A DNA stretch of 64,000 nucleotides. Origin: Ensifer adhaerens. GTDB lineage: Bacteria; Pseudomonadota; Alphaproteobacteria; Rhizobiales; Rhizobiaceae. The translations under genes and the position numbers were made by a program. Each line of letters begins with the position of its first letter. The stretch's first letter is position 1. The notes under the pieces are model-generated. The model ran no database searches, was not told where the DNA came from, and saw nothing but the letters and a program-made list of their open reading frames with translations. The stretch spans positions 186,001-250,000 of the forward strand of contig NZ_LGAP01000002.1 in NCBI RefSeq assembly GCF_001270265.1, written 5' to 3'. Shown here in pieces: positions 1,281-19,260 of the stretch.

Positions 1281-2027
1281 TCAGAGCATCACGTCGCCGG
1301 AATTGGGCCCGAGCGTCTGGCCCACGAACAGGCTCGCCGATGGCGAAGCCAGGAACGAAACGGTCGCGGCGATTTCGTCCGGCTCGCCGAAACGCCCGAG
1401 CGGCAGCTGCGCCTTCTTGGCGGCCCGCCAATCCTCAGAAAGCCCCATCACCAGCGGCGTGTTTATGGGGCCGGGCGCGACCGCGTTGACGCGTACGCCG
1501 CGGCTGGAAACCTCGCGGGCAAGCGCCTTGGTCATGCCAATGATTGCGGCCTTGGCGGACGAATAGTGAACGAGCTCGACACCGCCGATCTGGCCAAGCT
1601 GCGAGGCCATGTTGACGATCACGCCCTCGCCGCGGGCAAGCATTGCCGGCAGCACCGCCTTGGTCATCAGGAAGGTGCCGCGCACATGCACCGCAAACAT
1701 CCGGTCGAAATCGGCGACCTCGAGATTTTCGAACAGCGCCTGATGGGCGATGCCTGCATTGTTGACGAGCAGCGCCGCGGGCCCATGGAGCTGGGCCGCC
1801 TTCTCAGCCGTCGCCTTGACGTCGGCTTCGCTCGAAACGTCGCCGGCAATCGCTGTCGCCACGCCGCCGGCCGCAGCGATCTCGTCCGCAACCGCCTTGC
1901 AGCGTTCCGGCGAAAGATCGTTGACGACGACGGCATAGCCGTCGGCCGCCAGCCTCAGAGCAATGGCCCGGCCGATGCCGGAACCGGCACCGGTGACGAT
2001 CGCGCAACCAAGCATCGAGCCGGCCAT
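1281..2027 (-). CDS. Short-chain dehydrogenase/reductase
   Basis: A 248-residue classical SDR: TGAGSGIG at residues 12-19, NNAG at 89-92, Ser142, Tyr155 and Lys159 as the catalytic set. The start ATG overlaps the TGA stop of the permease gene (TGATG), which argues for translational coupling. It is distinct from the SDR that follows, so the operon has two different dehydrogenases. Together they could carry out successive oxidation steps on the substrate brought in by the neighbouring importer; that role is inferred from context only. Confidence 0.88.
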   Translation of the reverse strand: MAGSMLGCAIVTGAGSGIGRAIALRLAADGYAVVVNDLSPERCKAVADEIAAAGGVATAIAGDVSSEADVKATAEKAAQLHGPAALLVNNAGIAHQALFENLEVADFDRMFAVHVRGTFLMTKAVLPAMLARGEGVIVNMASQLGQIGGVELVHYSSAKAAIIGMTKALAREVSSRGVRVNAVAPGPINTPLVMGLSEDWRAAKKAQLPLGRFGEPDEIAATVSFLASPSASLFVGQTLGPNSGDVML

Positions 2028-2872
2028 CACGCCTCCTCCTGGATCGCGATGCGCTTGGCGCGGCGTACCGAAAGCATCATCAGCGCCGCGTAGGTGCCGA
2101 GCAGCGCGAAGGAGAACAGCGTCGTCAGCACGCCGAAGGCAAAGACGTTCGGGTGCACTTCGACGGAGAAGGTGCCGTAGATCGCAAGAGGCAACGTCAG
2201 GTCGCGGCCGGAGGCGAAAAGCGTGCGCGAAAACTCGTCATAGGAGAGCGTGAAGGCAAAGAGCATGGCGGAAAGCACGCCGGGGAAGATCAGCGGGAAG
2301 GTCACCTTGCGGAAGGTGCGCGCCGGCGTGACGCCGAGCGACCAGGACGCCTCCTCCATGCTCGGATCGAAGCGGTTGAAGATCGCCAGCATCACCAGGA
2401 AGGCGAAGGGAAAGGTGTAGACCACGTGCAGAACGAAGGCGGTGCTCCACCAGTGGCGGTCGATACCGAGCGTCTTGGCAACGAGCGCCATGCCGAGGCC
2501 AACGAGCACGCCCGGCACCATCATGCCGAGAACGATGAGGTAGAAGACCACGCCCGAGCCGCGGAACTTCCGGCGGAAGGCTTGCGCTGCCGTGACCCCC
2601 AGCACCGTCGAGACGATCATGGTCATCACCGCAAGGCCGAGCGAGCGGACCAGCGCCTGCTCGATCGGCAGCGGCGCGATGCGCGACGGCGGCGTCAGGC
2701 CGAAGAGGTGCTTGTACCAATAGGTCGACCATTCGATGATCGGGAACTGCGGGCCGCCCTCCGGTCCCGTCTGGAAGGACAGGATGGCAAGCACGACGAG
2801 CGGGCCATAGAGGAAGACGAGGAAGAGCGCGGTATAGGCGCCAAGGCTGAGTTTCATGCCGCTGGCATTCAT
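2027..2872 (-). CDS. ABC transporter permease (PotC-like)
   Basis: A 281-residue integral membrane protein with about six hydrophobic helices and a BPD_transp_1 EAA loop (EEASWSLGVTPARTFRKV, then FPLIFPG) that docks on the ATPase. It belongs to the PotC/YdcV type of polyamine and opine importers. The ATG at 2872 lies two bases after the stop of the upstream permease. A second start further upstream would add a non-hydrophobic Arg/Gly-rich stretch and is rejected. It forms the inner-membrane channel with the neighbouring 299-residue permease. Confidence 0.88.
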   Translation of the reverse strand: MNASGMKLSLGAYTALFLVFLYGPLVVLAILSFQTGPEGGPQFPIIEWSTYWYKHLFGLTPPSRIAPLPIEQALVRSLGLAVMTMIVSTVLGVTAAQAFRRKFRGSGVVFYLIVLGMMVPGVLVGLGMALVAKTLGIDRHWWSTAFVLHVVYTFPFAFLVMLAIFNRFDPSMEEASWSLGVTPARTFRKVTFPLIFPGVLSAMLFAFTLSYDEFSRTLFASGRDLTLPLAIYGTFSVEVHPNVFAFGVLTTLFSFALLGTYAALMMLSVRRAKRIAIQEEA

Positions 2873-2874
2873 GA

Positions 2875-3774
2875 TCAGAGCTCCTTCCTGAGATCGACGA
2901 CCCGCAGGAGTGCGGCCACGACCGCCCCCATCAGGATGGTAAGCACGACGCCGGCGACCGCCGCGAAGGCCCATTTCAACGAACCGACCTGGGTGACGAT
3001 GATGTTTCCGAGCAGGTTGACCTTGCGGCCGGAGAGGGCGGCCGAGGTTGCGAATTCACCGAGAACCATGACCGAGACGAAGATCGCGCCGACGACCACG
3101 CCCGGCATCGACAGCGGCAGGATGATCGTGCGGAAGATCCGCCAGAAACCGGCGCCGAGATCCTGAGCAGCCTCGATGATCGAGGTGTCGATGCGGCCGA
3201 GCATGAAGGCGATCGGGCCGACCATGAAGACGCAGTAGATCTGCGTCATGCCGATGATCACCGACAGCTCGGAGAACAGCAGCACCTCGATCGGCGCGTC
3301 GGTAATGCCGAGGTTCATCAGGATCATGTTGATCGCGCCCTCCTTGCCGAGCATCGGCCGCCAGGCGAGTACGCGGATCAGGAACGAGGTCCAGAAGGGG
3401 ATGACGCACAGCACCAGGAGTACCGTCTGCAGCGCCTTGTTCTTGACGAACAGCCCGACGAAAAGGGCAGCGGGATAGCCGACCAGCACGGTGGCGACGA
3501 GAACGATCAGCCAGATGCGCACTGTCGTCCACAAGGCACCGAGATAGGTGTCGCTGGTGAAGAACGTGACCCAGCTTTTCAGCGTCAGCGTCGGCTCGAT
3601 CGTGAAGGTCGTCTGCGTCCAGAAGGAAACGTAGACCATCATCAGCATCGGCAGGACGAGGAAGAGGCTCATCCAGATAACGCCGGGCGCAAGCAGCCAA
3701 AGCGCCTTTCCGGGTGATTTCTTCTCGGCGACGGTTTCGGTTTCCGTCTGCTCCGCAACGGCCATCATGCTCAT
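2875..3774 (-). CDS. ABC transporter permease (PotB-like)
   Basis: A 299-residue inner-membrane permease. A short charged N-terminal tail is followed by about six transmembrane helices and the EAA loop (EAAQDLGAGFWRIFRTIILP, then LSMPGV). The length and motif order match the PotB/YdcU branch. It is the first of the two permeases in this importer, 75 bases downstream of the ATPase gene. ATGs at 3774 and 3768 are both possible. Confidence 0.88.
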   Translation of the reverse strand: MSMMAVAEQTETETVAEKKSPGKALWLLAPGVIWMSLFLVLPMLMMVYVSFWTQTTFTIEPTLTLKSWVTFFTSDTYLGALWTTVRIWLIVLVATVLVGYPAALFVGLFVKNKALQTVLLVLCVIPFWTSFLIRVLAWRPMLGKEGAINMILMNLGITDAPIEVLLFSELSVIIGMTQIYCVFMVGPIAFMLGRIDTSIIEAAQDLGAGFWRIFRTIILPLSMPGVVVGAIFVSVMVLGEFATSAALSGRKVNLLGNIIVTQVGSLKWAFAAVAGVVLTILMGAVVAALLRVVDLRKEL

Positions 3775-3849
3775 CTCTCATTCTCCGGGCGGGAACGGTG
3801 CGGCGCGCAGGCGCCGGGTTTTGCGAAAGCGGTTTCAGGCATAGACGTT

Positions 3850-4926
3850 TCAAGCGTAGACAAGGGCATCCTCCCGCTTCCACACGAGGGCGTAGCGGCC
3901 CTGTTCGGCATAGGTCTCGGGCGCTGCGTGGCTGAGATGGCTTTCGACCTCGAAAACCCGGCCGTCATCGAGCGCAAAGAAGGAATTGACCGCGGCACCG
4001 GAATATTCGCTGGCGACGAAATTCGCCTCGATCCGGATCTCGTCCTCGGCGATGGCGGCTTCGCGCGGCCGGACCGAAACACGGTCGTAGCGGATGGCAT
4101 AGGCGGGCGACGCCGCACGCGACGGCGTCGCCGATCCGAGCGCGAACTGTCCGGAGCCGCCGACGAACACGCCGCCTTCGATACGTCCGGGAAAGAGGTT
4201 GTAGCAATTGAGAAAGCGGGCAACGGCCGGCGACGCGGGCCTGTTGTAGACGGTATCGGAATCCGCCGACTGGGCGATGCGGCCGCTTTCCAGCACCAGG
4301 ACCGTATCGCCCATGGCCAAAGCCTCGGCCTCGCTGCCGGTCACATGCAGGAAGGTGACGCCGCAGCGCTCGCGGATCGCCCTCAACTCCGCCCGCATCC
4401 GGGCGCGCAGATTGGCGTCGAGCGCGCCGAGTGGCTCATCGAGAAGCACCATGCGCGGTTCGGTGACAAGCGTGCGCGCCAAGGCCACGCGCTGACGCTG
4501 GCCACCGGAGATCTGGGTGACGGCCCTGCCTTCAAGACCGGAAAGGCCGACAAGGCTGATGATGTCGCGCACCCTGGTGTCGACGAGACGCCGGTCGGCG
4601 ACGGGATCGACATCCCTGTTTTCCAGGCCGAAGGCGATGTTCTGCGCGACGGACAGATGCGGGAAGAGGGCGAAGTTCTGGAAGACGAAACCGATGCCGC
4701 GCTTGTGCGGCGGCACTGTGTCGATGCGCTTGCCGTCAAACAGGATCGCGCCGCCATCCGGATGCTCGAAACCGGCAATGACTCTTAGAAGAGTCGTCTT
4801 GCCGGATCCGCTCGGCCCGAGAAGCGAGATGTAGGCGTCGCCGGGCAAAGCGAGATCGATGCCGTTGAGCGCACGCATGTCGCCGTAGGTTTTGGTGATG
4901 TTCTTGAGCTGAAGGACCGTTGACAT
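3850..4926 (-). CDS. ABC transporter ATPase (PotA-like), altered H-loop
   Basis: A 358-residue ATPase with Walker A GPSGSGKTT (37-45), Q-loop VFQN (Gln83), signature ISGGQ (139-143), Walker B MVLLDE (159-164) and a C-terminal TOBE-type region typical of PotA/FbpC importers. The switch region reads HVTGSEAEAL where the family normally has VTHDxxEAL, so the H-loop histidine appears to be replaced by glycine. It is the first gene of the operon that continues leftwards through two permeases, two SDRs and a binding protein. It is divergent from a GntR regulator across about 540 bases. Confidence 0.87.
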   Translation of the reverse strand: MSTVLQLKNITKTYGDMRALNGIDLALPGDAYISLLGPSGSGKTTLLRVIAGFEHPDGGAILFDGKRIDTVPPHKRGIGFVFQNFALFPHLSVAQNIAFGLENRDVDPVADRRLVDTRVRDIISLVGLSGLEGRAVTQISGGQRQRVALARTLVTEPRMVLLDEPLGALDANLRARMRAELRAIRERCGVTFLHVTGSEAEALAMGDTVLVLESGRIAQSADSDTVYNRPASPAVARFLNCYNLFPGRIEGGVFVGGSGQFALGSATPSRAASPAYAIRYDRVSVRPREAAIAEDEIRIEANFVASEYSGAAVNSFFALDDGRVFEVESHLSHAAPETYAEQGRYALVWKREDALVYA

Positions 4927-5107
4927 TGGTTTCCTGCCAGTTTGCCGTCCAGACACCCACCACCCAAAGCTTCGCCTTCGCCGGAGCCGAGGAGGCATCC
5001 GAACGGACATGCGATTGCGTTCGCGCATGGTCACATGCGCGTCGGAGATGAAGGTCCTTTGCGGTTCAAAAAATAAGTTCCACCTGCACGCTTCTTCTGA
5101 GCGCTTG

Positions 5108-5469: not shown

Positions 5470-6510
5470 TTGCCAGCCAAACGGAAGACGCCCGATCGCA
5501 TGAGCGAGCCACGCCTCGGCCAGAATACCCAGCGCCGCTACGAAATTGCCGAGGACGTTCTGCGCAGCAATATCGCCGAAGGCATTCTGCCGCCCGGACT
5601 TGTCCTGCTCGAAGGGCCGATCGCCGAGATCCTGCAGATATCGCGTGCGCCTGTTCAGCGCGCGCTGTTGCAATTGGAAAGCGACGGCCTCGTCCACCGC
5701 TTCAAGGGGCGCGGCTACCTCGTCGGACCGCCGGGTCGGGCGATCGAGCCCAACCGCACCGACATCAAGTCGCTTGGGCTGACCATTCCGCAACACGCCG
5801 ACGAGGCGCTGCAAAGCCGCTCGTCCTGGGAGCGCATCTACACCGAAATCGAAAACGACGTCGCCGGCTGCGTGATCTTCGGCCAGTATCGCATCATCGA
5901 AAACGAGCTTGCCAACCACTTCAGCGTCAGCCGAACCGTGGTGCGCGACGTGCTCACGCGGCTGCGCGAGCGCGGGCTGGTGCGCAAGAACCAGAGTTCG
6001 CACTGGATTGCCGGTCCGCTGACGGCCCAGACCGTAAAGGACCATTTCATGCTGCGCCGTCTGCTCGAGCCGCAGGCGCTTGCGCTCGGCGCCAGCCATA
6101 TCGACAGGGATCGACTTGCCGCCCTGTTCAGCCAGCTGGTGGAACTCGACGGCTCGCAATCGGCGGACGCCTGGCAGAACCTTGAGGACATCCGCACGCA
6201 ATTTACCGAATGCTGCGTGCTGGCGATGCCGAACGAACGGCTGCGCGAACTGATCCGCAACAATCTGCTGCCGGTGACGGCGACGGAGCGGCTGCTGCGG
6301 CAGCTCGGCTTGCCAGGAGACCCGGCGGTGATCGCGGAAATCAGGCTGATCGTGGAACTGATGACGCGTGGTGCGACCGCCGCGGCGGCAGCGATGCTGG
6401 AGAACCACATCGACGCCTCGATGAACCGGACGATCGCACAGATGAAGATCGTCGCGATCATTCCGGGCCCGAGCGTCACTGCCGCCTATCTGACTCGCGT
6501 CGTCGAATAG
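5470..6510 (+). CDS. GntR-family regulator with two winged-helix domains
   Basis: A 346-residue protein. Residues about 20-85 form a GntR-type winged helix (RYEIAEDVLRSNIAEGILPP, then a recognition helix around SRAPVQRALLQLESDGLV). Residues about 118-180 form a second one (IYTEIENDVAGCVIFG ... SRTVVRDVLTRLRERGLV). A helical FCD-like ligand domain follows. Most family members have a single DNA-binding domain. The TTG start is chosen because GAGG sits six bases upstream; the first ATG (5500) has no ribosome site. It is divergent from the importer operon and is the obvious candidate regulator of it. Confidence 0.82.
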   Translation: MPAKRKTPDRMSEPRLGQNTQRRYEIAEDVLRSNIAEGILPPGLVLLEGPIAEILQISRAPVQRALLQLESDGLVHRFKGRGYLVGPPGRAIEPNRTDIKSLGLTIPQHADEALQSRSSWERIYTEIENDVAGCVIFGQYRIIENELANHFSVSRTVVRDVLTRLRERGLVRKNQSSHWIAGPLTAQTVKDHFMLRRLLEPQALALGASHIDRDRLAALFSQLVELDGSQSADAWQNLEDIRTQFTECCVLAMPNERLRELIRNNLLPVTATERLLRQLGLPGDPAVIAEIRLIVELMTRGATAAAAAMLENHIDASMNRTIAQMKIVAIIPGPSVTAAYLTRVVE

Positions 6511-6620: not shown

Positions 6621-7592
6621 TCAGCGCAGCGACGTGCGCAGCGCTTCCAGCCGGGCGTTTTCCTGCGTTCGCGCCGCCAGCGCCTCATCCATCGTGACCT
6701 CGACGAACCGGGTCGGCGTATGCGGCTGCATCTGCCCGATCAGGTCCATGTCGGCAGAAATCACCGTTCCAAGCATGAAGTAGCCGCCACCGGAAACCGC
6801 ATCGCGATGCAGGATGATCGGCTCGGTTCCGCCGGGAACCTGGATCGAGCCGTAGGGGTAACAACTGTCGACGATGTTGGACGGGTCGGAACCGGCACCG
6901 AACGGTTGCTCACGTTCGATGAAGGAGAGTTTGCGGCCGCCGCGGAAGCGGTAACCCATGCGGTCGGCTTCGGGCGCCACTTTCCATTCGTCGGCAAAGA
7001 AGCTCTGTTTCGCCTCGTCGGCGAGGCGATCCCAATAGAGGCCGGGCAGAACACGCAGGGCCACGGGTGCGGCCGGCAGGCGTCGCAATTGCTCGCCGAC
7101 CGAGCGGCCTTCACTGGAACCGTTGCCGACACCGACCGGGAGTTCGTCGCCAGGCTGAAGCGGCCGGCCGTTGTAACCGCCAAGCGCGCCGATCGGGTAG
7201 GTCGAGCGGCTGCCGAGTGCCAGCGGCACATCGATACCGCCGGCAACGGCGATATAGATGCGGGCGCCGGATTTGAGGAAATCGAAGGTCAGGGTCTGGC
7301 CGGCGCGAACAGGGAAGGCCGTCCAACCCGGTTGCTCCACCCCATCGACCTTTGCCGGCATGTGGGCTCCGGTGACGGCAACCAGCGTGTCTTCGGTAAA
7401 TTCGAGCTTGGGGCCGAGGAACACCGTCTCGAGGCCAGCCGCGCCCTCCTCGTTTCCGACCAGCAGGTTGGCGGCTCGCATCGCATAGCGATCCATGGCG
7501 CCACCGAGCGGAATGCCGAGATGAAAGTAGCCGGGACGGCCAAGGTCCTGGACGGTGGTCGCAAGACCGTGATGCAGCACCTTAATGGCCAT
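6621..7592 (-). CDS. pxpC: 5-oxoprolinase-type carboxyltransferase subunit PxpC
   Basis: A 323-residue KipA/PxpC (carboxyltransferase domain subunit 2) protein; the N-terminal region with TTVQDLGRPGY and the GIPLGGAMDR segment are characteristic. With PxpB and PxpA it normally forms ATP-dependent 5-oxoprolinase, opening pyroglutamate to glutamate. It is the last gene of a leftward operon and overlaps pxpB by 11 bases. Here the operon also supplies a biotin carboxylase and a biotin carrier, so the enzyme may be a biotin-dependent variant acting on 5-oxoproline or another lactam. Confidence 0.88.
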   Translation of the reverse strand: MAIKVLHHGLATTVQDLGRPGYFHLGIPLGGAMDRYAMRAANLLVGNEEGAAGLETVFLGPKLEFTEDTLVAVTGAHMPAKVDGVEQPGWTAFPVRAGQTLTFDFLKSGARIYIAVAGGIDVPLALGSRSTYPIGALGGYNGRPLQPGDELPVGVGNGSSEGRSVGEQLRRLPAAPVALRVLPGLYWDRLADEAKQSFFADEWKVAPEADRMGYRFRGGRKLSFIEREQPFGAGSDPSNIVDSCYPYGSIQVPGGTEPIILHRDAVSGGGYFMLGTVISADMDLIGQMQPHTPTRFVEVTMDEALAARTQENARLEALRTSLR

Positions 7593-8457
7593 TGATCATG
7601 CCCTCCAGCCGGATGTTGTAGCCAGTGATATCCTTCTGGAACTCGCGCAGGTCGAAGCTGACCTCGCGGACCGGCGGGCTGAAGCGCCCCTTGTCGACAT
7701 CCTCGACCGCCTGATCATAGGCATCGCGGTCGATCGGCTTGAATTTGACGACATCGCCCGGCCGGAAGAACACCATGAAATCGCGGAGATAGCTGGTGGT
7801 CTGCGTCGGGTCGAAGATCGGCATCGGCGTGATGCCGAACATCTGGTAGCCGCCGGCGCCGCGAACCGAATAGATGCAGCCGAAGCAGCCGCCATGGCCG
7901 ACGGTCAGGCGCGGCGTATCGGTGCGCGGGCGAAGATATTTCGGCACCTGGATCTGCCGTTGCCGCTCGACCATCTGATACATGAACGGCAGGCCGGCTA
8001 CGAAGCCGACCATCGACACGAACCAGGGCGAACCGGAATGGGCGGCGACAAAATCTTCAACGTCGCCGTAACCGTTGATCCGTGTCGCGTAGTCGAGATC
8101 GGTTCCTGATGGCTCCTGGTGGCGCTCGCGAAAGCGCATCAGCGTCTCATGCGTCCAGGGGTCGTTGTAGAAAACCGGGATTTCGACGATGCGGGTGCGA
8201 ATGACGGGTTCTGCCCGTTCGGCCGCGCCCTCGATCGCCCGGACTTCCCTCAGCACGTCATCGGGTTTGATTACGTCCGGGTTGAACTTGATCTGGAAGG
8301 ACGCATTGGCCGGGCAGATTTCGGTGATGCCCTTGATGCCGCTCTCCTTGACGCCGTTGGCCATGGAGAGGCTCTTGAAGAAGGCCTCCAACGACATCTC
8401 GTCGCTACACTCGACGAACAGATGCTCGTCGCCTCCGAACGTGTATCGTGTCGGCAT
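7582..8457 (-). CDS. pxpB: 5-oxoprolinase-type carboxyltransferase subunit PxpB
   Basis: A 291-residue KipI/PxpB-type protein (carboxyltransferase domain subunit 1). The family core is visible as PWFVSMVGFVAGLPFMYQM, VPKYLRPRTDTPRLTVG and GGYQMFGITPMPIFDP. It has an N-terminal extension compared with the roughly 220-residue B. subtilis KipI. The ATG at 8457 overlaps the stop of the biotin carboxylase gene (TGATG), showing tight coupling with a biotin-charging enzyme, which is not a feature of the classical biotin-independent PxpABC operon. Confidence 0.87.
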   Translation of the reverse strand: MPTRYTFGGDEHLFVECSDEMSLEAFFKSLSMANGVKESGIKGITEICPANASFQIKFNPDVIKPDDVLREVRAIEGAAERAEPVIRTRIVEIPVFYNDPWTHETLMRFRERHQEPSGTDLDYATRINGYGDVEDFVAAHSGSPWFVSMVGFVAGLPFMYQMVERQRQIQVPKYLRPRTDTPRLTVGHGGCFGCIYSVRGAGGYQMFGITPMPIFDPTQTTSYLRDFMVFFRPGDVVKFKPIDRDAYDQAVEDVDKGRFSPPVREVSFDLREFQKDITGYNIRLEGMINGH

Positions 8458-9842
8458 CACGCGACCTCCGCAGCACGGCCACCATCGGCGGCAAATTCAG
8501 TTTCAAGCCATGTTTCGAGAAAGCGGGTATGGAAGGCGCCCTTTGCGATCTGCGGATCGGCAGCCAGCGCCCGATGCAACGGAACCGTTGTCGGCACGCC
8601 CTCGATCTTCAGCTGCTCCAGCGCCTGGGAAAGGCGGACCAGGCACGCCGGGCGGTCTTCGCCCCAGACGATCAGCTTGCCGAGCAGCGAATCGTAGAAC
8701 GGCGGGATGACGTAGCCTCCGTAGAGCATCGTGTCGAAGCGGATGCCCTTGCCCTCGGGCACGGCGAGCCTTTCGATCCTGCCTGGCGCCGGCATGAAGC
8801 CGCGCCTCGGGTCCTCGGCATTGATCCGGCACTCGATGGCATGGCCCTTGACGGCGATGTCGGCCTGGCGGACCGACAGCGAAGCGCCGGCGGCAATGCG
8901 GAACATCTCTTCGACCAGATCGATACCGGTGATCATCTCGGTCACCGGGTGCTCCACCTGGATGCGGGTGTTGACCTCGATGAAGTAGAACTGGCGGGTC
9001 TCGTCGTCGTAGAGATATTCCACCGTGCCGGCCCCGCGGTAGCCGACGGAGCGCGCCAGCGCGACGGCGCTGTCGCAGAGCTTCTGCCTGACCTCGGGCG
9101 GAAGCAGGAAGGACGGCGCCTCTTCCCAGACCTTCTGCCGGCGGCGCTGCAGCGAGCATTCGCGCTCGAAGCAATGCACGACGTTCTTGCCGTCGCCGAG
9201 AATCTGGACTTCGACATGGCGGGCGCGGGTGATGACCTTTTCCAGATAGAGGCCGCCATCGCCGAAGGATGCCAGCGCCTCGGCGGACGCCTGGGGAAAC
9301 TGCGTCTCCAACTCGGCCGCAGTGTTAACGATGCGGATGCCGCGGCCACCACCGCCGGCTGCCGCCTTGATCATCACGGGGAAGCCGGTGCGCTTCGTCA
9401 CCTCAAGCGCGTCGGCAAGGCTGGAGATCCGGCCGTCGCTTCCCGGAACTGTCGGCACACCAGCCTTCTCGGCGACGGCTCGGGCGGCGACCTTGTCGCC
9501 CAACAGGCGAATGGCATCGCCGGAAGGGCCGATGAAGATGAGGCCGGCGGCAACCACGGCGTCGGCGAAATCGCCGTTCTCCGACAGGAAACCATAACCC
9601 GGATGGACCGCATCGACATCGGCACGCTTGGCCGCCGAGATCACGGCTGCAATGTCGAGATAGGATTTCTTCGGCGCCGGCGGACCGATCTCGATCGCCT
9701 CGTCGGCGAGCTTGACCGCCAGCATGTCGGCGTCGGCAGCACTATAGACCTGGACCGTGCGGATACCGAGTGCCTTGGCGGCGCGGATGATGCGGACGGC
9801 GATTTCGCCACGATTGGCAACGAGAACCGAGCGTAGCTTCAT
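8457..9842 (-). CDS. accC: Biotin carboxylase subunit (AccC family)
   Basis: A 461-residue ATP-grasp biotin carboxylase: ANRGEIAVR near the N terminus, HPGYGFLSEN at about 80-90, the glycine-rich ATP loop KAAAGGGGRGIR, and EVNTRIQVEHPVTE in the active site. It uses ATP and bicarbonate to carboxylate biotin on a carrier protein. It overlaps both the biotin carrier gene upstream and pxpB downstream by about four bases, so it is probably dedicated to this complex and not the housekeeping acetyl-CoA carboxylase subunit. Confidence 0.92.
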   Translation of the reverse strand: MKLRSVLVANRGEIAVRIIRAAKALGIRTVQVYSAADADMLAVKLADEAIEIGPPAPKKSYLDIAAVISAAKRADVDAVHPGYGFLSENGDFADAVVAAGLIFIGPSGDAIRLLGDKVAARAVAEKAGVPTVPGSDGRISSLADALEVTKRTGFPVMIKAAAGGGGRGIRIVNTAAELETQFPQASAEALASFGDGGLYLEKVITRARHVEVQILGDGKNVVHCFERECSLQRRRQKVWEEAPSFLLPPEVRQKLCDSAVALARSVGYRGAGTVEYLYDDETRQFYFIEVNTRIQVEHPVTEMITGIDLVEEMFRIAAGASLSVRQADIAVKGHAIECRINAEDPRRGFMPAPGRIERLAVPEGKGIRFDTMLYGGYVIPPFYDSLLGKLIVWGEDRPACLVRLSQALEQLKIEGVPTTVPLHRALAADPQIAKGAFHTRFLETWLETEFAADGGRAAEVA

Positions 9843-10081
9843 TGGTCGACCTCGGCGATCACCTGGCCGGCCATGACGGGCTCTTCGTTGTCGACGAGAA
9901 AGCGGATACTGCCGCCCGCCACACCGGCCTGGATCTCCTGAAAGGTCTTCATGACCTCGATCAGACCGATAGCGTCGTTCGAGGAAACGGTATCGCCATC
10001 CGTTTTGAAGGGCGGGACATCCGGAGCAGACGAGCGATAGAAGGTTCCTGGAAGTGGCGATCGGATTTCGTGCTTGCTCAT
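9839..10081 (-). CDS. Short biotin carboxyl carrier protein
   Basis: An 80-residue biotinyl domain with the biotinylation motif EVMK; the acceptor is Lys45. AccB proteins are usually about 150 residues with a Pro/Ala-rich linker; this one consists of the carrier domain only, beginning with IRSPLPGTFY. The start at 10081 is chosen because it gives a compact biotinyl domain; a longer reading frame would add an unrelated Arg-rich stretch. It sits between pxpA and the biotin carboxylase gene and should shuttle carboxybiotin between the carboxylase and the PxpBC-type carboxyltransferase. Confidence 0.9.
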   Translation of the reverse strand: MSKHEIRSPLPGTFYRSSAPDVPPFKTDGDTVSSNDAIGLIEVMKTFQEIQAGVAGGSIRFLVDNEEPVMAGQVIAEVDQ

Positions 10082-10097
10082 GGTTGCCTCCGCTATG

Positions 10098-10907
10098 TTA
10101 TTTGGTTTTGACCTGAGAGACGGGAGCAATGCGGATGCCCTCGGCACTCAGCGCCTCCCGCATGAGCCGCACGATATCGAGCGCGCCCAGCGTATCGGAA
10201 TGAAAACAGATGGATTCGAACGGGACCTCGACGTCGGCACCCGTGACCGTCCGCACCCGTCCTTCCCGACAGGCGCGCACGACCTTGCGCGCGATTGCCG
10301 TGGCATCCGGCCGGCCGGCATCACGGGTAAACACGATCGAGCCGCTGTCGTCATAGTCGCGATCGGCATAGAACTCTCGGATGACAGGCTGGCCGACCTC
10401 CTGTGCGGCAAGCTCCGTCGCCGATCCGGCCATGCAGAAGACGAAGGCGTTCGGCGCGACCGTGCGCATATATTGCATGAAGATCTGCGAGAGTTCGCGA
10501 TTGACCGCCATCTCCATATAGAGCGCGCCGTGCGGCTTCACATGCTGCAAGGGCGCGCCGTGGCGGCGGGCGAATTCGCGGATCGCGCCGACCTGATAGA
10601 CGATGTCGTTGACAAGCTCGCGGGCAGTGCCCGCAATCTTGCGGCGGCCGAACCCCTGCAGGTCGCGATAACCGGGATGGGCACCGATGCCGACGCCATG
10701 TTCGGCGGCGAGCCGAACCGTTTCATCCATCAGATTGGGATCGCCACCATGGAAGCCGGCGGCGATATTGGCAGAACTGATCAGCGGCATCAGTGCCGCA
10801 TCATCCGTATCGCCGATGCGCCAGCGGCCGAACGCTTCTCCCATGTCGCAATTGATGTCGACGACGTCGAGCAATGCCTCATCCCTCTCTTGCGGGCCGC
10901 TCTCCAT
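10098..10907 (-). CDS. pxpA: 5-oxoprolinase subunit PxpA (LamB/YcsF family)
   Basis: A 269-residue LamB/YcsF protein with the family hallmarks [11 protein letters not shown] near the N terminus, [13 protein letters not shown], and HVKPHGALY. It is the hydrolytic component of 5-oxoprolinase. A longer frame beginning with TTG at 10943 exists, but ATG 10907 has an AAGG ribosome site and starts close to the conserved DINCD motif. It is the first gene of the operon pxpA, biotin carrier, accC, pxpB, pxpC, and is divergent from a LysR regulator. Confidence 0.9.
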
Positions 10908-10979
10908 GCGACCTTGAACAGAGAGAACGCTAGGGTGAAACAAAGCATTTGAAAAATTCTATTTTCATATGCCACGTAT

Positions 10980-10990
10980 CTGAATTTCAG
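10980..10990. promoter_or_regulatory. Short palindrome in LysR/pxp divergent promoter
   Basis: CTGAA-T-TTCAG, a perfect 11-base palindrome in the A/T-rich region between pxpA and the divergent LysR gene. LysR-type regulators normally bind short dyads here, so it is a candidate operator. Confidence 0.35.
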
Positions 10991-11144
10991 AATTCGCAGT
11001 TGCAAAATGCCGCTGTGAAAATTAGCGTCTTTTGAGCCGCTTACGTGGGAATGCCTGAGGGATGATCAACGGACTGCTCAAAGGCGCGGCAGACTTTCTG
11101 ATTTTCTCACCTACGGTATAAAAAAATCAGATGGGAGATGCGTT

Positions 11145-12071
11145 ATGTCGATCAGCCTTCGCCAGCTTCGCTATTTCGTCGCAACGGCGGAACTCGGACA
11201 GATATCGCAGGCGGCAGTCGATCTCTCGATCTCCCAGTCCGCCGTGACCACGGCCATCAAGGAGTTGGAGCGCATCGTCGGCGCCAATCTTTTCCTACGC
11301 ACCCCAAGCGGCATGGACCTGACGATGGCAGGCCGCCAGTTCCTCTCGCACGCCTACGAGATCCTGAAGAAGGTGGACGAGGCAACGCATCTGAACGTCG
11401 TCAGCAGCGCCGTCGAAGGCACGCTGGCGATCGCCGCCACCTATACCGTGATCGGCTATTTCCTGCCGCAGCATATCGAGCGTCTGCGGCGCCTATTCCC
11501 CAAGCTCGAGCTGCAGCTGTTCGAACTCAAACGGGAATCGATCGAGGAAGGCCTGCTCACCAACCGCTACGACATGGCGGTGCTCTTGACCTCGAACATC
11601 CTCAACCCCGCGCTGACGACCGAAAAACTGATGAGCTCGACGCGACGGCTCTGGGTTCCGGCCCAGCATCCGCTGCTTCAACGCGACAGCGTCGGTTTTC
11701 GCGAGATCTCCGAGGAGCCCTACATCATGCTGACGGTCGACGAGGCGGCGCATTCGTCGCTGAAATACTGGAGCACGTCGACCTACCAGCCGCGCGTTAT
11801 TCTCCGAACGTCGTCGGTCGAGGCGGTGCGCTCGCTGGTCGCCAACGGCCAGGGCGTGGCCATTCTGTCCGACATGGTACACCGCCCCTGGTCGCTCGAG
11901 GGCCGGCGCATCGAGACGATCAACGTGCGTGACCCCGTCCCGGCCATGGATGTCGGCCTTGCCTGGCGGCGTGGCGCTGAGTTCACGCCGCCGATGCAGG
12001 CGCTGCGGTCCTATTTCCAGCAGACGTTTCATATTCCGGGCGTGCGCGACGCGTCGTTCGCCACACCCTGA
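11145..12071 (+). CDS. LysR-family transcriptional regulator
   Basis: A 308-residue LysR-type regulator. The N-terminal winged helix is clear (LRQLRYFVATAELGQISQAA, then SQSAVTTAIKELERIVGANLFLR); the remainder forms the co-inducer-binding domain. GGGAG lies seven bases before the ATG. Divergent orientation about 240 bases from pxpA makes it the likely regulator of the biotin/pxp operon, sensing 5-oxoproline or a related lactam (inference). It converges on proC, ending 24 bases from that gene's end. Confidence 0.87.
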   Translation: MSISLRQLRYFVATAELGQISQAAVDLSISQSAVTTAIKELERIVGANLFLRTPSGMDLTMAGRQFLSHAYEILKKVDEATHLNVVSSAVEGTLAIAATYTVIGYFLPQHIERLRRLFPKLELQLFELKRESIEEGLLTNRYDMAVLLTSNILNPALTTEKLMSSTRRLWVPAQHPLLQRDSVGFREISEEPYIMLTVDEAAHSSLKYWSTSTYQPRVILRTSSVEAVRSLVANGQGVAILSDMVHRPWSLEGRRIETINVRDPVPAMDVGLAWRRGAEFTPPMQALRSYFQQTFHIPGVRDASFATP

Positions 12072-12095: not shown

Positions 12096-12917
12096 TCAGT
12101 TGGCGACGGCAAGTTCCAACGCCCGGCGATGCGCAGCCACGGCCGCCCGCTTCACGAGGTCGGCCAGGTCAGAATCAGCCATGAGAACCTCGAGCGCTGC
12201 AGCCGTGGTGCCGTTCGGGCTGGTCACCTGTTGGCGCAGCTCTGCCGGGGAAAACGTGCTTGTTGCAGCAAGAGCAGCGGCGCCACCGACCGTCTGCTTT
12301 GCCAAAGCATGCGCGGTCTCCGCCGGCAGGCCGACAGCAATCCCCGCGTCGGTCAAACACTCGATAAAGTGGAAGAGATAGGCCGGCCCCGAACCGGATA
12401 TCGCCGTTGCCGCATCGACAAGCCTTTCCTCCGCCAGCCAATGAACACTGCCGACGGCCGCCAGAAGGTCGGTAACATAAGCCGCTCGAACGTCGTCGAT
12501 GTGGGTGTTGCCAAAGGCTGCAATCACCCCCATGCCGATCGAGGCCGGCATGTTTGGCATGGCGCGCACGACCGCGGTCTCGCCCAGTGTGGCCTCGAAG
12601 GTCGAGATCGGCACGCCGGCGGCGATGCTGACGAACACGGCCGCTCCACTGAACCGGCGGTATGCCGCAAGCATCGAGCCGACGATCTGCGGCTTGACGG
12701 CGACAATGACGGCGCGCGGCTGCAGCGCCTCCGGCAGGTTGGATGCATCGGCGTAAACCGTGGCGCCGCGAGCGGCAGCGCGGCCGCGAAGAGGTTCCGC
12801 CGGCTCGACCACGTGAATTCGGCTCGCAGGAATACCGGCCCTCTCGAGCCAGCCTTCGAGGAGGGCAAAGCCCATGTTGCCGCAACCGACAAGCACGATA
12901 TCTCCGGACTGTTCCAT
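12096..12917 (-). CDS. proC: Pyrroline-5-carboxylate reductase family protein
   Basis: A 273-residue ProC-type reductase: Rossmann motif VGCGNMG at residues 10-16, MPNMPASIGMG, and the P5CR signature region from AISGSGPAY through the ALAKQTVGGAA helix. Canonical members reduce pyrroline-5-carboxylate to proline with NAD(P)H. ATG 12917 is chosen because GAGGAG lies eight bases upstream; the ATG at 12935 has none. It is the last gene of an operon with an ABC importer, an acyl-CoA ligase and an enoyl-CoA hydratase. It may therefore reduce a cyclic imine derived from a catabolic substrate, with a housekeeping ProC elsewhere. Confidence 0.85.
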   Translation of the reverse strand: MEQSGDIVLVGCGNMGFALLEGWLERAGIPASRIHVVEPAEPLRGRAAARGATVYADASNLPEALQPRAVIVAVKPQIVGSMLAAYRRFSGAAVFVSIAAGVPISTFEATLGETAVVRAMPNMPASIGMGVIAAFGNTHIDDVRAAYVTDLLAAVGSVHWLAEERLVDAATAISGSGPAYLFHFIECLTDAGIAVGLPAETAHALAKQTVGGAAALAATSTFSPAELRQQVTSPNGTTAAALEVLMADSDLADLVKRAAVAAHRRALELAVAN

Positions 12918-12945
12918 CCGCGCGTCTCCTCTCATTGGTGACGGT

Positions 12946-14478
12946 CTATTGCCGCGCTAGCCGATCCCAACAATCGTTAAGACCGGCGGGCAGCCGGTGT
13001 TTCATGATACGCTGGCTCGGCGTGCGTTCGAAATCATCGACAACGGCGATGTAGCGCGGGTTCTGGTAGGGCGCGAGCCGATGCGCCAGCCATCCCGACA
13101 GGTCGATCGGATCGATCGCGCTGCCCGCCTTGGGCTTGACGAAGAGCTTGATGTCCTGCTCGCCGACATCCGCGGCGACGCCGATCATGGCGCAATCCTC
13201 GACCGCCGGATAGGCAGCGGCAACATGCTCCACCTCCCAGGCGGAGACGTTTTCACCCTTGCACCGGACGCTGTCGGTGAGTCGGCCGTGGAACCACAGG
13301 TTACCGTCAGCATCGAAAGAGCCGGAATCGCCGGTGTGAAGCGCTTCGTTGCGAAGGGTCTTTTCGGTCGCTTCCGGATTGCGCAGATATCCCTTGAACA
13401 GCGCGCCCTCAAGCGAGGTACGCACGACGATCTCGCCCTTGTCGCCAGCCGGCACCGGCTCGCCCTTTTCATTGAGGATATCGACCGAGAACCAGGGCAT
13501 CGGCCGGCCGACGGCGCCGACGACACCGTTGGCGTTGCAGGTGGTAATGCTGGACGCTTCGGTCATGCCGTAGCATTCCCGCATCTCGACGCCGAAGCGC
13601 TCCTTGAATAAAGGCCAAACCTCCTTCGGGCAGCCGCCGCCCCAGGCAACGCGCACCGGATGCTGGCGATCGCGTTCGCTTTCGGGCTGCTTGAGCAGGA
13701 TCTGCAGGATGCCGCCGAGATAGTGGATGTGGGTGGCGCCGTAGCTGCGCACCTGGTCCCAGAAGCGGCTGGCGCTGAAACGATCGACCATGGCGAGCGA
13801 CAGGTCCTCGATGATCGGCAGCACGATCAGTTGCGCGCCGCCGATATGATAGAGCGGCTCCCAGACGAAGAAGGCATCGCCCGGGCCTGCCACCGAAAGA
13901 GTGCGGACCGCCTCACCGGCGAGCCGGATCATGCCGTGGGTCACCAGCACGCCCTTCGGCCGGCCGGTGGTGCCGGAGGTATACATGATCGCAAACAGAT
14001 CGTCGGCGGCCGGCAGCTCCTCGTCGAAGGCGGCACCCGAAGCCAGGATCGTCTCAAGTGACGCCGCGCCGGCCTGTTCGCCGGCGAGAATAACCCCGGC
14101 CGCAGGCAGAACGGCACCGCTTTCGGCGATGGTCTCGGCAAGCTCCGCGTCACAGATGACGGCGCCCGGCTCGCAATGTTCCAGGATATAGCGCAGGCCC
14201 TCGCCGCGCAGCTGGGCGTTGACCGGCACCCAGACGACACCTGCCTTGGCAAGTCCGAACAGGACGGCAAGCGACAGGCGCGAATTGCGCATCATCACCG
14301 CGGCGCGATCGCCGGATTTCAGGCCGCGTTGACGCAGGTCGGCGGCAAGCGCCCCGGACATCGCGTCGAGGGTGGCAAAGGTGATCGGCTCGCCGTTGAA
14401 ACGGGCGAACACCTGGTCCGGTCTGCGGGCAGCCTTGGTCGTGAAGCTTCCGAGGAAGCCTTCGAGAGATACGGTCAT
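12946..14478 (-). CDS. Acyl-CoA ligase, CaiC-like
   Basis: A 510-residue class I adenylate-forming enzyme. Visible motifs in order are the P-loop-like YTSGTTGRPKG, the A5 motif YGMTEAS, the A7-A8 region (GDSGSFDADGNLWFHGRLTD and the following KGENVSAWEVE), and the catalytic-lysine region RTPSQRIMK near the C terminus. It activates a carboxylic acid to an AMP ester and transfers it to CoA. The overall pattern is closest to crotonobetaine/carnitine-CoA ligase relatives. It lies 22 bases after a permease gene and 28 before proC in a co-directional operon with an enoyl-CoA hydratase. Confidence 0.88.
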   Translation of the reverse strand: MTVSLEGFLGSFTTKAARRPDQVFARFNGEPITFATLDAMSGALAADLRQRGLKSGDRAAVMMRNSRLSLAVLFGLAKAGVVWVPVNAQLRGEGLRYILEHCEPGAVICDAELAETIAESGAVLPAAGVILAGEQAGAASLETILASGAAFDEELPAADDLFAIMYTSGTTGRPKGVLVTHGMIRLAGEAVRTLSVAGPGDAFFVWEPLYHIGGAQLIVLPIIEDLSLAMVDRFSASRFWDQVRSYGATHIHYLGGILQILLKQPESERDRQHPVRVAWGGGCPKEVWPLFKERFGVEMRECYGMTEASSITTCNANGVVGAVGRPMPWFSVDILNEKGEPVPAGDKGEIVVRTSLEGALFKGYLRNPEATEKTLRNEALHTGDSGSFDADGNLWFHGRLTDSVRCKGENVSAWEVEHVAAAYPAVEDCAMIGVAADVGEQDIKLFVKPKAGSAIDPIDLSGWLAHRLAPYQNPRYIAVVDDFERTPSQRIMKHRLPAGLNDCWDRLARQ

Positions 14479-14499
14479 GGGAGGATCTCGGATGTGGTG

Positions 14500-16262
14500 T
14501 CAGGAGGAGCGGCGGAGTTTTTCCGCCGCCAGGAGAAGTGTTGTCACGACGATGAAGACGACGACCGAAACCGCCGCGAGCGTCGGGTTGAGCTGAAGGA
14601 TCATGTCATCCCACATTTGCTTCGGCAGGGTCGTCTTGACGCCGCCGCTGACGAAGATCGCCACGGTTAGCTCGTCGAACGAGGTGATGAAGGCAAAGAG
14701 GAACGCTGCCGTCAGGCCGCTCTTGATCAGCGGCACGGTGACGAAGCGCAGCGCCTGAACGCGGTTTGCCCCGAGCGTGGCCGCCGCCTGGTCGAGCCGC
14801 CAGTCGTAGCTCTTCAGGACGGCGGCGATGGCGACGAAGGCAAAGGGCAGCGCCAGCACCGTGTGGCCGATCACCAGGCCAAGGTCGGTGGCGACCAGTC
14901 CCATCTGGGCAAAGAGATAGAACAGGCCGACGGCGATGACGATGCGCGGCACGATCATCGGCGCCAGGAAGAAGGCGAAAATGATGCCCCGCCAACGCGA
15001 GCGCGAGCGGGCAAGCGCCAGCGCCGCAAAGCCACCGATCACCGTTGCAACGATGGCCGTCGCGAAGGCGACACCGAACGAGCGGATGGTGGCCGCAACC
15101 CAGAGATCGGAGGTGAAATAGGTCCTGAACCATTCCAGGCCATAGCCCGGCGGCGGGAACTCGAGGAACTGCGAGCTGGTGAAGGCGATCGGCAGGACGA
15201 CGAGCGTCGGCAGCATCAGGAAGGCGAACATCAGCAGGCTGTAGATGCCGAGCATCCGGCTCGAAACCGCCGCCCCCAGCAGCCGGTGGCTGCCGGCCGA
15301 AATAGCGCTGCGGACGCTCGCCAGCCGATCGAGGATTGCCAGACCAAGGGCGCGCAGGAAACCGGTTTTACCGGCCTTGCCATCGGAAGGTTCGCCGGAC
15401 AGGCTCGAAAGGCCGAACACCCGATCGTAGAGCCAGCACGTGACCAGTGCTGCAGCCAGCATCATGGCGGCGAGAGCCCCGGCAAACGCCCAGTTCAGGA
15501 TTTCCTGCACCTGAACGATGATCAGTTGCGCCAGCATCGTCTGTTGACGGCCGCCAAGCAGGGCCGGAACGATGAAGAAGCCGAGCGAGGAGATGAAGGT
15601 CAGCAGGCCGGCAGCCGCAGCCCCCGGAAGCGAAAGCGGGAAATAGACGAGCCAGAAGCCTTTTGCAGGGGTCGCGCCCAGCGTCCCCGATGCCTGCGTC
15701 AACCGGCGATCGATACCGGTCATCACGGGTAGCATGGTGAGGATGGCCAGCGGCACCATGGCATGGACCATGCCGATCATCACGCCGAGCTCATTGTGCA
15801 GCAGCTCGAGCGGCTGGCTGAGCACGCCGGTTCCAAGGCCGATCTGGTTGATGATGCCGGTGCGGCCCAGCACGATGACCCAGGCAAAACTCTTGACGAG
15901 GTAGCTCGTCCAGAACGGCACCATCACGAGCAGAATCATGGTGCCACGCGTCCGGTCCGGCAGGCGCGACAGCCAGTAGGCCAGGGGGTAGCCGAGCAAC
16001 AGGGAGAAGAGCGTCGTCAGCCCGGCGATGCGGAACGTGATCAAGAGGACGCGGAAATAGACGTCGGTCTCGAAGATCCTCGCATAGTGGCTGGCGGTCA
16101 TCGCGCCGGTGTCGGCATCCTCCAGGCTGAGACCCATCAGCCTTGCGACGGGGACAAGGAAGAAGATCAGCAGAAAGGCGATGCCCGGCACCGCCAGCCA
16201 AAGCGGGCCGAAGCGGAAGCGGTTGGAGCGCTGAGCGCGCGTGGTGGTAACAGCCGTCGCGT

Positions 16263-16266
<4 letters not shown>
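14500..16266 (-). CDS. Fused ABC transporter permease (PotB-PotC type)
   Basis: A 588-residue protein containing two permease modules in tandem. The first spans residues about 20-285, with the variant docking loop QASGTLGATPAKGFWLVYFP; a soluble linker covers about 285-340; the second module carries QAAATLGANRVQALRFVTVP at about 500. PotB- and PotC-type partners are normally separate proteins of 280-300 residues, as in the other importer of this window. The start overlaps the ATPase stop by four bases (ATGA). It provides the complete channel of the importer. Confidence 0.9.
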
Positions 16267-17342
<1,076 letters not shown>

Positions 17343-17354
17343 CAAATTTTCCCC

Positions 17355-18431
17355 TTAAGCCAGGATCCAGGCGTTGAAGCGCTCGGTCATTTCGGAACGG
17401 TTGGCGCTCCACCAGTCTTCCCGTGCAATGGTCATGACCTTGAGATTGGCCTCGGAGGTCGGAAGGGCTGCAGCGCGTTCTGCCGGGATATGCTCATAGG
17501 CCTTGAGGTTGGTCGGGCCGTAGGCGAGGAACTCGGTAAAGAGCGCCTGCTGCTTTGGATCGGCGCAGAACCGGACGAACTGCCGGGCGATATCAGCGCG
17601 CGGCGAGCCCTTGGGAATGCCCCATCCCTCGATCGAGTAAAGCCCCTGGTTCCAGCCGATCTTGACCGGCGCACCGCCATCGATGACCGCCTGAGCGCGG
17701 GCGTTCCATAGGGCGATCACGTCGACTTCGCCGCTTTGGATCAGCTGGCTCGACTGCGCGCCGCCGGTCCACCAGACGTCGACATGCGGCTTGATCTTCT
17801 CGAGGCTGGCATAGGCACGCTCGATGTCGAGCGGGTAGAGTTCGGCAAGCGGCACGCCATCGGCAAGCAGCGCCTGCTCCAGCGTATCGATTGGGTTCTT
17901 GCGCAGGGCGCGACGGCCCGGGAATTTCTCGACATTCCAGAAATCGGCCCAGGAGTTCGGGCCATTGGCGGCGTCGAAACGATCGGTGCGATAAGCCATG
18001 ATCGTCGAATAGACATCAACGCCAAGCCACAGCTCGGTCAGCGCGTCGGGCATCAGCCCGGGCACGTCGGCCGCCGGCAGGTTGATCGGCTCAAGCAGGT
18101 CGCGTTTTTTCAGGATGTCGCGGGCGGAAAGCGTCAGCGTGCAGACGTCCCAGCTATAGGATTGTGTCTCGACCATCGCCCGGAACTGCGCGGTCGGTTC
18201 GGCGTCGCGGGCGACATTGATAACCTTGATGCCGGTTGCATGTTCGAAAGGATCGTAGAATGCCTTGCGGTATCCCGGGCTATAAGGACCGCCGGGATCG
18301 GCGACGGTCAGCGTTTCGGCGGCAAATGCCGATCGCGTGAAGACGGCAGGCGCGGCCAGGGCAACGCCGAGGCCGCCGCCGATTTTCAACAGGCTGCGGC
18401 GATCAATCAGAATTCGTTTATTGTTGGTCAT
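17355..18431 (-). CDS. ABC transporter periplasmic binding protein
   Basis: A 358-residue solute-binding protein of the PotD/SBP family 1 type. The N terminus has a Tat signal (RRSLLKIGGGLGVALAAP) with an AFAAE cleavage region. ATG 18431 is preferred over a longer frame because GAGGGT precedes it and the Tat motif then lies close to the start. It captures the substrate for the adjacent ATPase/fused-permease importer. The substrate is unknown; the neighbouring CoA ligase suggests a carboxylate, perhaps an amine- or betaine-containing one. Confidence 0.9.
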   Translation of the reverse strand: MTNNKRILIDRRSLLKIGGGLGVALAAPAVFTRSAFAAETLTVADPGGPYSPGYRKAFYDPFEHATGIKVINVARDAEPTAQFRAMVETQSYSWDVCTLTLSARDILKKRDLLEPINLPAADVPGLMPDALTELWLGVDVYSTIMAYRTDRFDAANGPNSWADFWNVEKFPGRRALRKNPIDTLEQALLADGVPLAELYPLDIERAYASLEKIKPHVDVWWTGGAQSSQLIQSGEVDVIALWNARAQAVIDGGAPVKIGWNQGLYSIEGWGIPKGSPRADIARQFVRFCADPKQQALFTEFLAYGPTNLKAYEHIPAERAAALPTSEANLKVMTIAREDWWSANRSEMTERFNAWILA

Positions 18432-18489
18432 TGTTCTACCCTCTTGTTTTGGATTGCGCGCCGCCTCCCATAAGCGGCTCTGGCCTTTG

Positions 18490-19260
18490 TCAGGCCTTGC
18501 TTGCCGCACGTCGTGCGAGAAACTGTTCCATCATCCGCGCCGGTTCGCCGGAGGCGTAGGCTTCGCGCTGGATGCGAGCGCCGGCTTCGAGGCAGTCGCG
18601 GAAACCAGCCTCTGTCATCTCCCTGAAGCGCTGTTTGTCAAGCCGCATGGCGACCGGCGGCTTGGCGGCGAGTTCGCGCGCCAGCGAGAGGGCCTCATCC
18701 ATGACGCGTTCCTGCGGCACGATGCGGTTGATGATGCCGATGGCCTGGCATTCATCCGATTGCATCAGACGGCCGCTGAGGGTCAGGTCGATGGTGCGGG
18801 CAAGACCAATCATTTCACGCATCATCCACGGGCCCGTGGTGCTGGCGATGCCGGAGTTGATTTCCGGCTGGCCCATGCGCACGCCCGGATGCGCGATGCG
18901 GAAATCGCAGAGAAGCGCCACCTGGAACGCCGAGCCGGCGGCAACGCCGTTGAGCGCGGCGATCAGCGGCTTCGACAGCGAACGCATCGCATCATAGAGC
19001 CGCTCCCATTCGCCGACCCATTCCTGGCCGCGGGCGGCGTCGAACGTGCGGGTCTCGTTCAGGTCCTGGCCGGCGCTGAACGCACGGTCACCGGCACCGG
19101 TGAGGATAATGGCGCGGACCGCCTCGTCTTCTTCGAAAGCCTTGAAGGCAGCAACCAGCTGCTGGCGCATCGGGCTATGCCAGGCATTAAGGATTTCGGG
19201 GCGGTTCAGCGTGATGACGCCAACCTCGCCGCGCCGTTCTGTCAGGATGAAGCGATCCAT
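18490..19260 (-). CDS. Enoyl-CoA hydratase/isomerase family protein
   Basis: A 256-residue crotonase-fold protein: TLNRPEILNAW near the N terminus, SAGQDL at the first oxyanion-hole segment, ALNGVAAGSAFQVALLCDFRIA at the second, and PEINSG retaining one catalytic glutamate. The region that normally supplies the second glutamate is less typical (TTGPWMMREM), so the activity could be isomerase- or hydrolase-like. GGAG precedes the ATG by about seven bases. It is the first gene of the IclR-controlled operon and probably acts on the product of the acyl-CoA ligase. Confidence 0.87.
   Translation of the reverse strand: MDRFILTERRGEVGVITLNRPEILNAWHSPMRQQLVAAFKAFEEDEAVRAIILTGAGDRAFSAGQDLNETRTFDAARGQEWVGEWERLYDAMRSLSKPLIAALNGVAAGSAFQVALLCDFRIAHPGVRMGQPEINSGIASTTGPWMMREMIGLARTIDLTLSGRLMQSDECQAIGIINRIVPQERVMDEALSLARELAAKPPVAMRLDKQRFREMTEAGFRDCLEAGARIQREAYASGEPARMMEQFLARRAASKA

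Follow-up and report, generated by a model that had tools for sequence, protein, structure and literature searches.

A candidate split, biotin-dependent lactam-opening enzyme of the urea carboxylase kind encoded by a five-gene operon of Ensifer adhaerens

A stretch of 64,000 nucleotides from Ensifer adhaerens (contig NZ_LGAP01000002.1, positions 186,001 to 250,000; hereafter the window) carries on its minus strand, at 6621-10907, a five-gene operon encoding homologues of PxpA, PxpB and PxpC together with a biotin carrier and a biotin carboxylase (BC). Gene content, gene order, conservation of catalytic residues and family placement suggest that the operon probably encodes a split biotin-dependent lactam-opening enzyme, an N-carboxylase combined with a PxpA-type hydrolase, which follows the logic of urea amidolyase; catalysis, complex formation and substrate are predicted from these features. 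In the proposed mechanism BC, using ATP and bicarbonate, would carboxylate biotin on the 80-residue carrier, and the two carboxyltransferase (CT) subunits would pass the carboxyl on to the lactam's ring nitrogen, with Lys174 of the PxpB homologue acting as general base. The PxpA-like protein would then hydrolyse the C-N bond thus weakened; decarboxylation of the resulting N-carboxy amino acid would yield the free amino acid.

The first gene in transcription order encodes the PxpA-like (LamB/YcsF) hydrolase (10907-10098; PF03746 LamB_YcsF, 1.9e-88), the proposed ring-opening subunit. A 16-bp gap separates it from the carrier gene (BCCP, 10081-9839; PF00364 Biotin_lipoyl, 2.7e-12; NF005457, 120.9 bits, cut-off 87), whose product has an EVMK motif with the predicted biotinyl Lys45. 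The 461-residue BC (8457-9842, overlapping the carrier gene by 4 bp) has all three BC domains (NF009471, 763 bits, cut-off 686) and, starting at residue 289, the catalytic stretch EVNTRIQVEHPVTE. A further 4-bp overlap leads to the gene of the 292-residue CT_C_D subunit, the PxpB homologue (8460-7582; PF02682, 9.8e-37), in which the codon of the proposed general base Lys174 occupies 7939-7941, and an 11-bp overlap to that of the 323-residue CT_A_B subunit, the PxpC homologue (7592-6621; PF02626, 7.6e-89). A LysR-family regulator gene (11145-12071, plus strand; PF03466, 5.8e-42, and PF00126) diverges from the operon, and the 237-bp region between it and pxpA (10908-11144) is, by its position, the presumed promoter/operator. 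The preliminary description had reported a five-gene minus-strand block with neighbours overlapping or at most 16 bases apart, an 80-residue EVMK carrier, a complete BC and a divergent LysR gene, and all of these agreed with our coordinates and profile matches. Its gene names pxpA, pxpB and pxpC held as statements of homology; as statements of identity pxpB and pxpC did not, both proteins being below the curated cut-offs.

The class of the CT subunits was assessed with curated models. The CT_C_D protein scored 65.5 bits against the PxpB model TIGR00370, whose cut-off is 145.55, and 112.8 bits against the urea carboxylase model. For the CT_A_B protein the score was 226.1 bits with the PxpC model NF045499 (cut-off 500) and 228.2 with urea carboxylase; it passed the broader TIGR00724 (269.5, cut-off 230.2). 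Partial matches to TIGR02712, none reaching its cut-off of 1303.85, came from BC and from each of the two CT proteins; the carrier had no listed match. When compared with PDB sequences, the CT_C_D protein was nearest to Kluyveromyces lactis urea carboxylase/urea amidolyase, the C-terminal extension included. The CT_A_B protein was nearest to Escherichia coli YbgK (1.1e-48), followed by urea carboxylase (2.5e-41); because YbgK is its nearest match, the CT_A_B subunit alone gives urea carboxylase no preference by this measure. An AlphaFold model of the CT_C_D subunit, built from 14 sequences, had a mean pLDDT of 56 and was used for no claim.

In the alignment with PDB sequences Lys174 fell opposite K1605 of the K. 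lactis urea amidolyase (numbered by our own count), a residue which PMC5770610 describes as probably the essential general base in CT catalysis. Position 174 was lysine in all 97 operons of the window's kind (T1), in all 12 urea carboxylases, in both T4 operons and the single T5 operon (urea-carboxylase-class operons with other gene orders), and in four of five orphan copies, the fifth having leucine. It was arginine in all 51 ordinary PxpB proteins and in two other biotin-coupled operon types described below, T2 (4/4) and T3 (5/5). The ordinary set comprised 50 biotin-free loci and the PxpB of locus L076, which is separated from the biotin genes there by about 3.5 kb or more. Residue 205 followed the same division: tyrosine in T1 (Tyr205 in the window) and urea carboxylase, tryptophan in the ordinary set, T2 and T3.

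A FastTree phylogeny built from 108 pairs of the two CT subunits, including 28 T1 pairs, separated urea carboxylase, T1, T4 and T5 from the rest with support 0.998, and T1 formed a single clade (1.0); the point at which T1 branches inside the urea-carboxylase half had a support of 0.139. The preliminary description had read the operon as PxpABC genes with biotin genes added. This reading is contradicted by the place of the CT subunits on the urea-carboxylase side of the tree and by Lys174, in contrast to the arginine of biotin-free PxpB. Since, in addition, the scores fell short of the curated PxpB and PxpC cut-offs, the operon most likely belongs with urea carboxylase, as a variant of that kind, and not with PxpABC.

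The residues and tree position of the CT subunits, and the higher score of CT_C_D on the urea carboxylase model than on that of PxpB, would also suit a urea carboxylase in split form, or an enzyme carboxylating some urea-like compound, with PxpA in another role. We regard this as quite improbable: no allophanate hydrolase was found in the E. adhaerens genome at E 1e-60, and although such an enzyme passes the cut-off in eight of the 16 T1 genomes, it lies at least about 47 kb from the operon where both are on the same contig. Moreover, PxpA adjoins the CT genes in nearly all loci.

Genomes G353 and G440, of one family, each have several CT_C_D copies with 27-35% identity to the window protein. 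Four of their loci (L049, L050, L052 and L053) hold urea-carboxylase-class CT_C_D/CT_A_B pairs; BC, carrier and PxpA are all absent from the retrieved stretches. The CT_C_D protein of L053 has lost the catalytic lysine.

Conservation of the gene order was examined on two scales. With the CT_C_D protein as query, 70 of 241 alphaproteobacterial genomes gave matches; sixteen, including the E. adhaerens genome itself, had a close relative, the other 15 at 67-74% identity. Proteins of about 1,200 residues combining BC, CT and carrier (urea carboxylases, judged by domains and length) matched it at 25-31%, and the match of ordinary PxpB was weak or absent. A scan of named GTDB genomes, of which the best 80 of at least 577 relatives were kept and which is therefore biased to close kin, mostly Hyphomicrobiales, gave together with two plasmid loci 82 related loci (L166 and L194 are one R. 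johnstonii locus). In R. johnstonii 3841 the operon lies on pRL12. Neighbouring genes were assessed by homology-ranked open reading frames and direct tblastn.

PxpA and the carrier were each present in 81 of these loci, and BC, CT_C_D and CT_A_B in all 82. The five-gene order and strand were retained in 80; L186 is truncated by a contig end, and L188 has pxpA inverted. Among the 80, L180 and L193 had genes split into two matches, as expected of frameshifts. A LysR match was found in 80 loci as well, the two misses being short contigs. The arrangement is nearly invariant among these loci, and chance juxtaposition of biotin and pxp genes was set aside on this ground. More distant relatives are plasmid-borne, in the haloarchaea Haladaptatus and Natribaculum and in Rhodococcus jostii RHA1; they carry the catalytic lysine, as found with a pattern that favours such sites. 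The RHA1 region (L201) also contains genes for an APH-family phosphotransferase and an ethanolamine permease.

Of the features of a biotin-dependent carboxylase, the window proteins show the predicted biotinyl Lys45 in the carrier, and the ATP-grasp domain and conserved catalytic stretch in BC. E[VI]MK was found in all 95 strong carrier matches from the 97 T1 loci, L186 and L193 yielding none. A BC match was obtained in 96 T1 loci; the exact BC motif was present in 89, and six of the other seven differed only in its last few residues; the BC of L161 is disrupted at the motif, and that of L139 differs in the glycine-rich loop.

Biotin supply was examined through bioY, a biotin importer gene. 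A homologue lies in the retrieved stretch of 16 of the 97 T1 loci, in several directly after pxpC, and none was found in the window. In the comparison loci there were none among 50 biotin-free, 11 T2/T3/T5 and six T4-family stretches, the spans searched being about 1,906 kb for T1 as against 730, 166 and 87 kb, respectively. The bioY profile was built from three T1 proteins; PF02632 was confirmed for three, and the match in L041 was weak (59 bits).

These data bear on the idea of a biotin-free pxp operon that works by phosphorylation and in which BC and carrier merely happen to be lodged, as a spare pair of acetyl-CoA carboxylase subunits. Both proteins do exceed the cut-offs of NCBIfam models named for acetyl-CoA carboxylase, and ordinary PxpBC is assumed (PMC13274462) to phosphorylate 5-oxoproline with ATP. 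Yet the conserved order in 80 of 82 loci, the urea-carboxylase-type CT lysine, the separate tree branch and the linkage to bioY make such a pair very improbable.

The PxpA-like protein and its substrate are less clear-cut. The protein passed NF003814, the NCBIfam PxpA subfamily model (289.7, cut-off 226), remained below the cut-offs of three narrower PxpA equivalog models, and retains the shared core residues of PxpA. PxpA proteins of T1, T4 and T5 form one clade (0.973). Position 131, which is asparagine in 98% of 43 ordinary PxpA proteins, is methionine in the window; within T1 it was methionine in all 13 members of the window-like half and glycine in all 15 of the other half.

The preliminary description had predicted a biotin-dependent enzyme acting on 5-oxoproline or another lactam or amide. 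At the sequence level a biotin-dependent enzyme for a lactam or amide is well supported by the BC motif, the biotinyl lysine, the CT lysine, bioY in some loci and gene order; 5-oxoproline itself is not favoured. A biotin-dependent 5-oxoprolinase would convert 5-oxoproline to glutamate by the same chemistry, and for it speak the PxpA subfamily match, the preserved core residues and the dependence on PxpABC of Corynebacterium glutamicum growth on 5-oxoproline (PMC13274462). Set against these, position 131 is altered, and some loci have genes of GABA rather than glutamate metabolism nearby. In addition, all 13 genomes in which T1 supplies the sole CT_C_D have an open frame of 1,211-1,288 residues, the size of fused oxoprolinases, that matches Hydantoinase_B. 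This last argument is suggestive only, because the 1,206-residue copy of the E. adhaerens genome, with A and B domains, has as its best full-length PDB relative a protein called N-methylhydantoinase. We consider a 5-oxoprolinase, and 5-oxoproline as the substrate, unlikely.

Homologues of GABA transaminase and/or succinate-semialdehyde dehydrogenase (SSADH) with at least 58% identity occur in seven of 101 T1 loci (L035, L160, L163, L168, L170, L184 and L200), and in none of the 50 biotin-free loci at that level (best 33%), whose stretches are shorter than those of T1. In each of the six that were scanned (all but L163), a protein passed an NCBIfam GABA-transaminase or SSADH subfamily cut-off; the narrower SSADH model was not passed. 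On the strength of the oxoprolinase-type genes, the lost PxpA asparagine and these GABA genes, the leading but tentative candidate is a gamma-lactam that gives an omega-amino acid, such as 2-pyrrolidinone yielding GABA; otherwise another cyclic amide may be the substrate.

Besides T1, other biotin-coupled arrangements exist. Sixty comparison loci were hand-picked among the matches listed; ten had BC or carrier in the retrieved stretch and 50 had neither. T2 operons, from Rhizobiaceae, encode carrier, BC, usually a second carrier-like protein, PxpB, PxpC and PxpA, and T3 operons encode a fused PxpBC followed by a fused BC-carrier; their PxpB proteins belong to the Arg/Trp class. In the CT tree T2 was nested among ordinary PxpBC with support 1.0, and the placement of T3 there was weak (0.59-0.88). 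Because T2 and T3 fall among ordinary PxpBC, apart from the urea-carboxylase half, biotin genes have probably joined, or stayed with, the PxpA/CT family in three places.

Biotin genes beside pxpABC are therefore not unique to the window operon, and the E. adhaerens genome has another such operon, of T2 type, with an EAMK carrier (L003:5451-10245, contig C2:104000-120000). Its second carrier-like protein has the biotinyl lysine replaced and no Pfam match; it recurs in L076, L077 and L079, not in L078. A proline-racemase-family gene and an aminotransferase gene are neighbours of L003.

Several observations weigh against a biotin-dependent gamma-lactam-opening enzyme. Arg-type PxpB is also found beside biotin genes; across the wider family, then, linkage to biotin does not depend on Lys174. 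L042, a T1 operon on a 4.7-kb contig of genome G317, has no BC between carrier and CT, and the best BC elsewhere in that genome is 50% identical. On plasmid pRHL2 of R. jostii RHA1 (L201:10754-37733) distant relatives of the five genes are interspersed beside microcompartment genes. The link to GABA genes is weak, three of the seven loci having supplied the queries and two pairs being close kin, and no GABA genes adjoin the window operon. Aminotransferases or dehydrogenases near L035 (a second one), L045, L142, L187 and L196 are of other types, and the aldehyde dehydrogenase of L187 fits L-piperidine-6-carboxylate dehydrogenase.

The flanks of the operon may bear on substrate uptake. Beyond pxpC lie a GntR/FCD regulator gene (5470-6510, plus strand; PF00392, PF07729) and the transporter cluster that it adjoins, Pot-type ABC transporter genes with a short-chain dehydrogenase gene (1281-5037, minus strand), candidates for substrate uptake by co-occurrence. 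In 45 of the 82 related loci the flank was of the GntR kind, usually with a Pot-type ABC transporter; 26 others had a sugar-type ABC transporter instead, no locus combining the two kinds, and 11 showed neither. A PotA-type match was found in 48, its position not always that of the window. Past the LysR gene, at 12096-19260 and all on the minus strand, are a proC homologue, an AMP-binding ligase gene, Pot-like ABC transporter genes and an enoyl-CoA hydratase family gene; the proC query was matched in three of the 82 loci.

A wider proposal would comprise a biotin-dependent class of amidolyases of Hyphomicrobiales and relatives, haloarchaea and Rhodococcus, in which N-carboxylation of a gamma-lactam precedes its hydrolysis by PxpA, with biotin coupling to PxpA/CT operons gained or kept in at least three lineages, and ordinary PxpBC as CT relatives whose catalytic lysine was exchanged for arginine. 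Taken jointly, these points fall a little short of an even chance. If true, the urea amidolyase strategy of carboxylating a nitrogen and then cutting would extend from urea to cyclic amides, and genes annotated in databases as acetyl-CoA carboxylase or 5-oxoprolinase subunits would acquire a function. Position 174 (Lys or Arg) would be a one-residue marker separating carboxylase-type from ordinary PxpB-like proteins, and biotin-driven lactam opening might serve for making omega-amino acids from lactams. No paper assigning a lactam-opening function to these genes was found in the open-access literature searched, which is no proof of absence as most subscription papers lay outside its scope.

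Among known systems, LamA/LamB of Aspergillus nidulans, which serve lactam use, form a parallel to the GABA genes near some T1 loci; this is a fungal system, likened here from its published descriptions. LamA is urea-carboxylase-like. LamB is related to YcsF/PxpA (PMC3412718), and the regulator of lamA and lamB also governs omega-amino-acid genes (PMC8016842). PDB entry 9yx5, likened from its chain sequences alone, lists an AccA3-type BC-carrier subunit together with two PxpB/PxpC-like chains, which it names subunits 1 and 2 of allophanate hydrolase; its PxpB-like chain differs from that of the window in aligning with the Arg/Trp class. No link between AccA3 and allophanate hydrolase was found in the open-access literature examined for it. 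T2 and T3 operons likewise bring together BC, carrier, PxpA, PxpB and PxpC homologues, and differ in gene order, in the Arg/Trp class and in their tree place among ordinary PxpBC. PxpABC itself (E. coli YbgJKL, Bacillus subtilis, C. glutamicum) shares adjoining homologues of PxpA, CT_C_D and CT_A_B, whereas its 50 ordinary loci are without BC or carrier and have Arg/Trp in place of Lys174/Tyr205. Urea carboxylase/amidolyase (K. lactis, PDB 3va7 and 5i8i) shares the BC, CT and carrier parts, the general-base lysine, the C-terminal extension of CT_C_D and the tree branch; there, at 26-31% identity, a single chain stands in place of four proteins, and allophanate hydrolase in place of the PxpA-like hydrolase.

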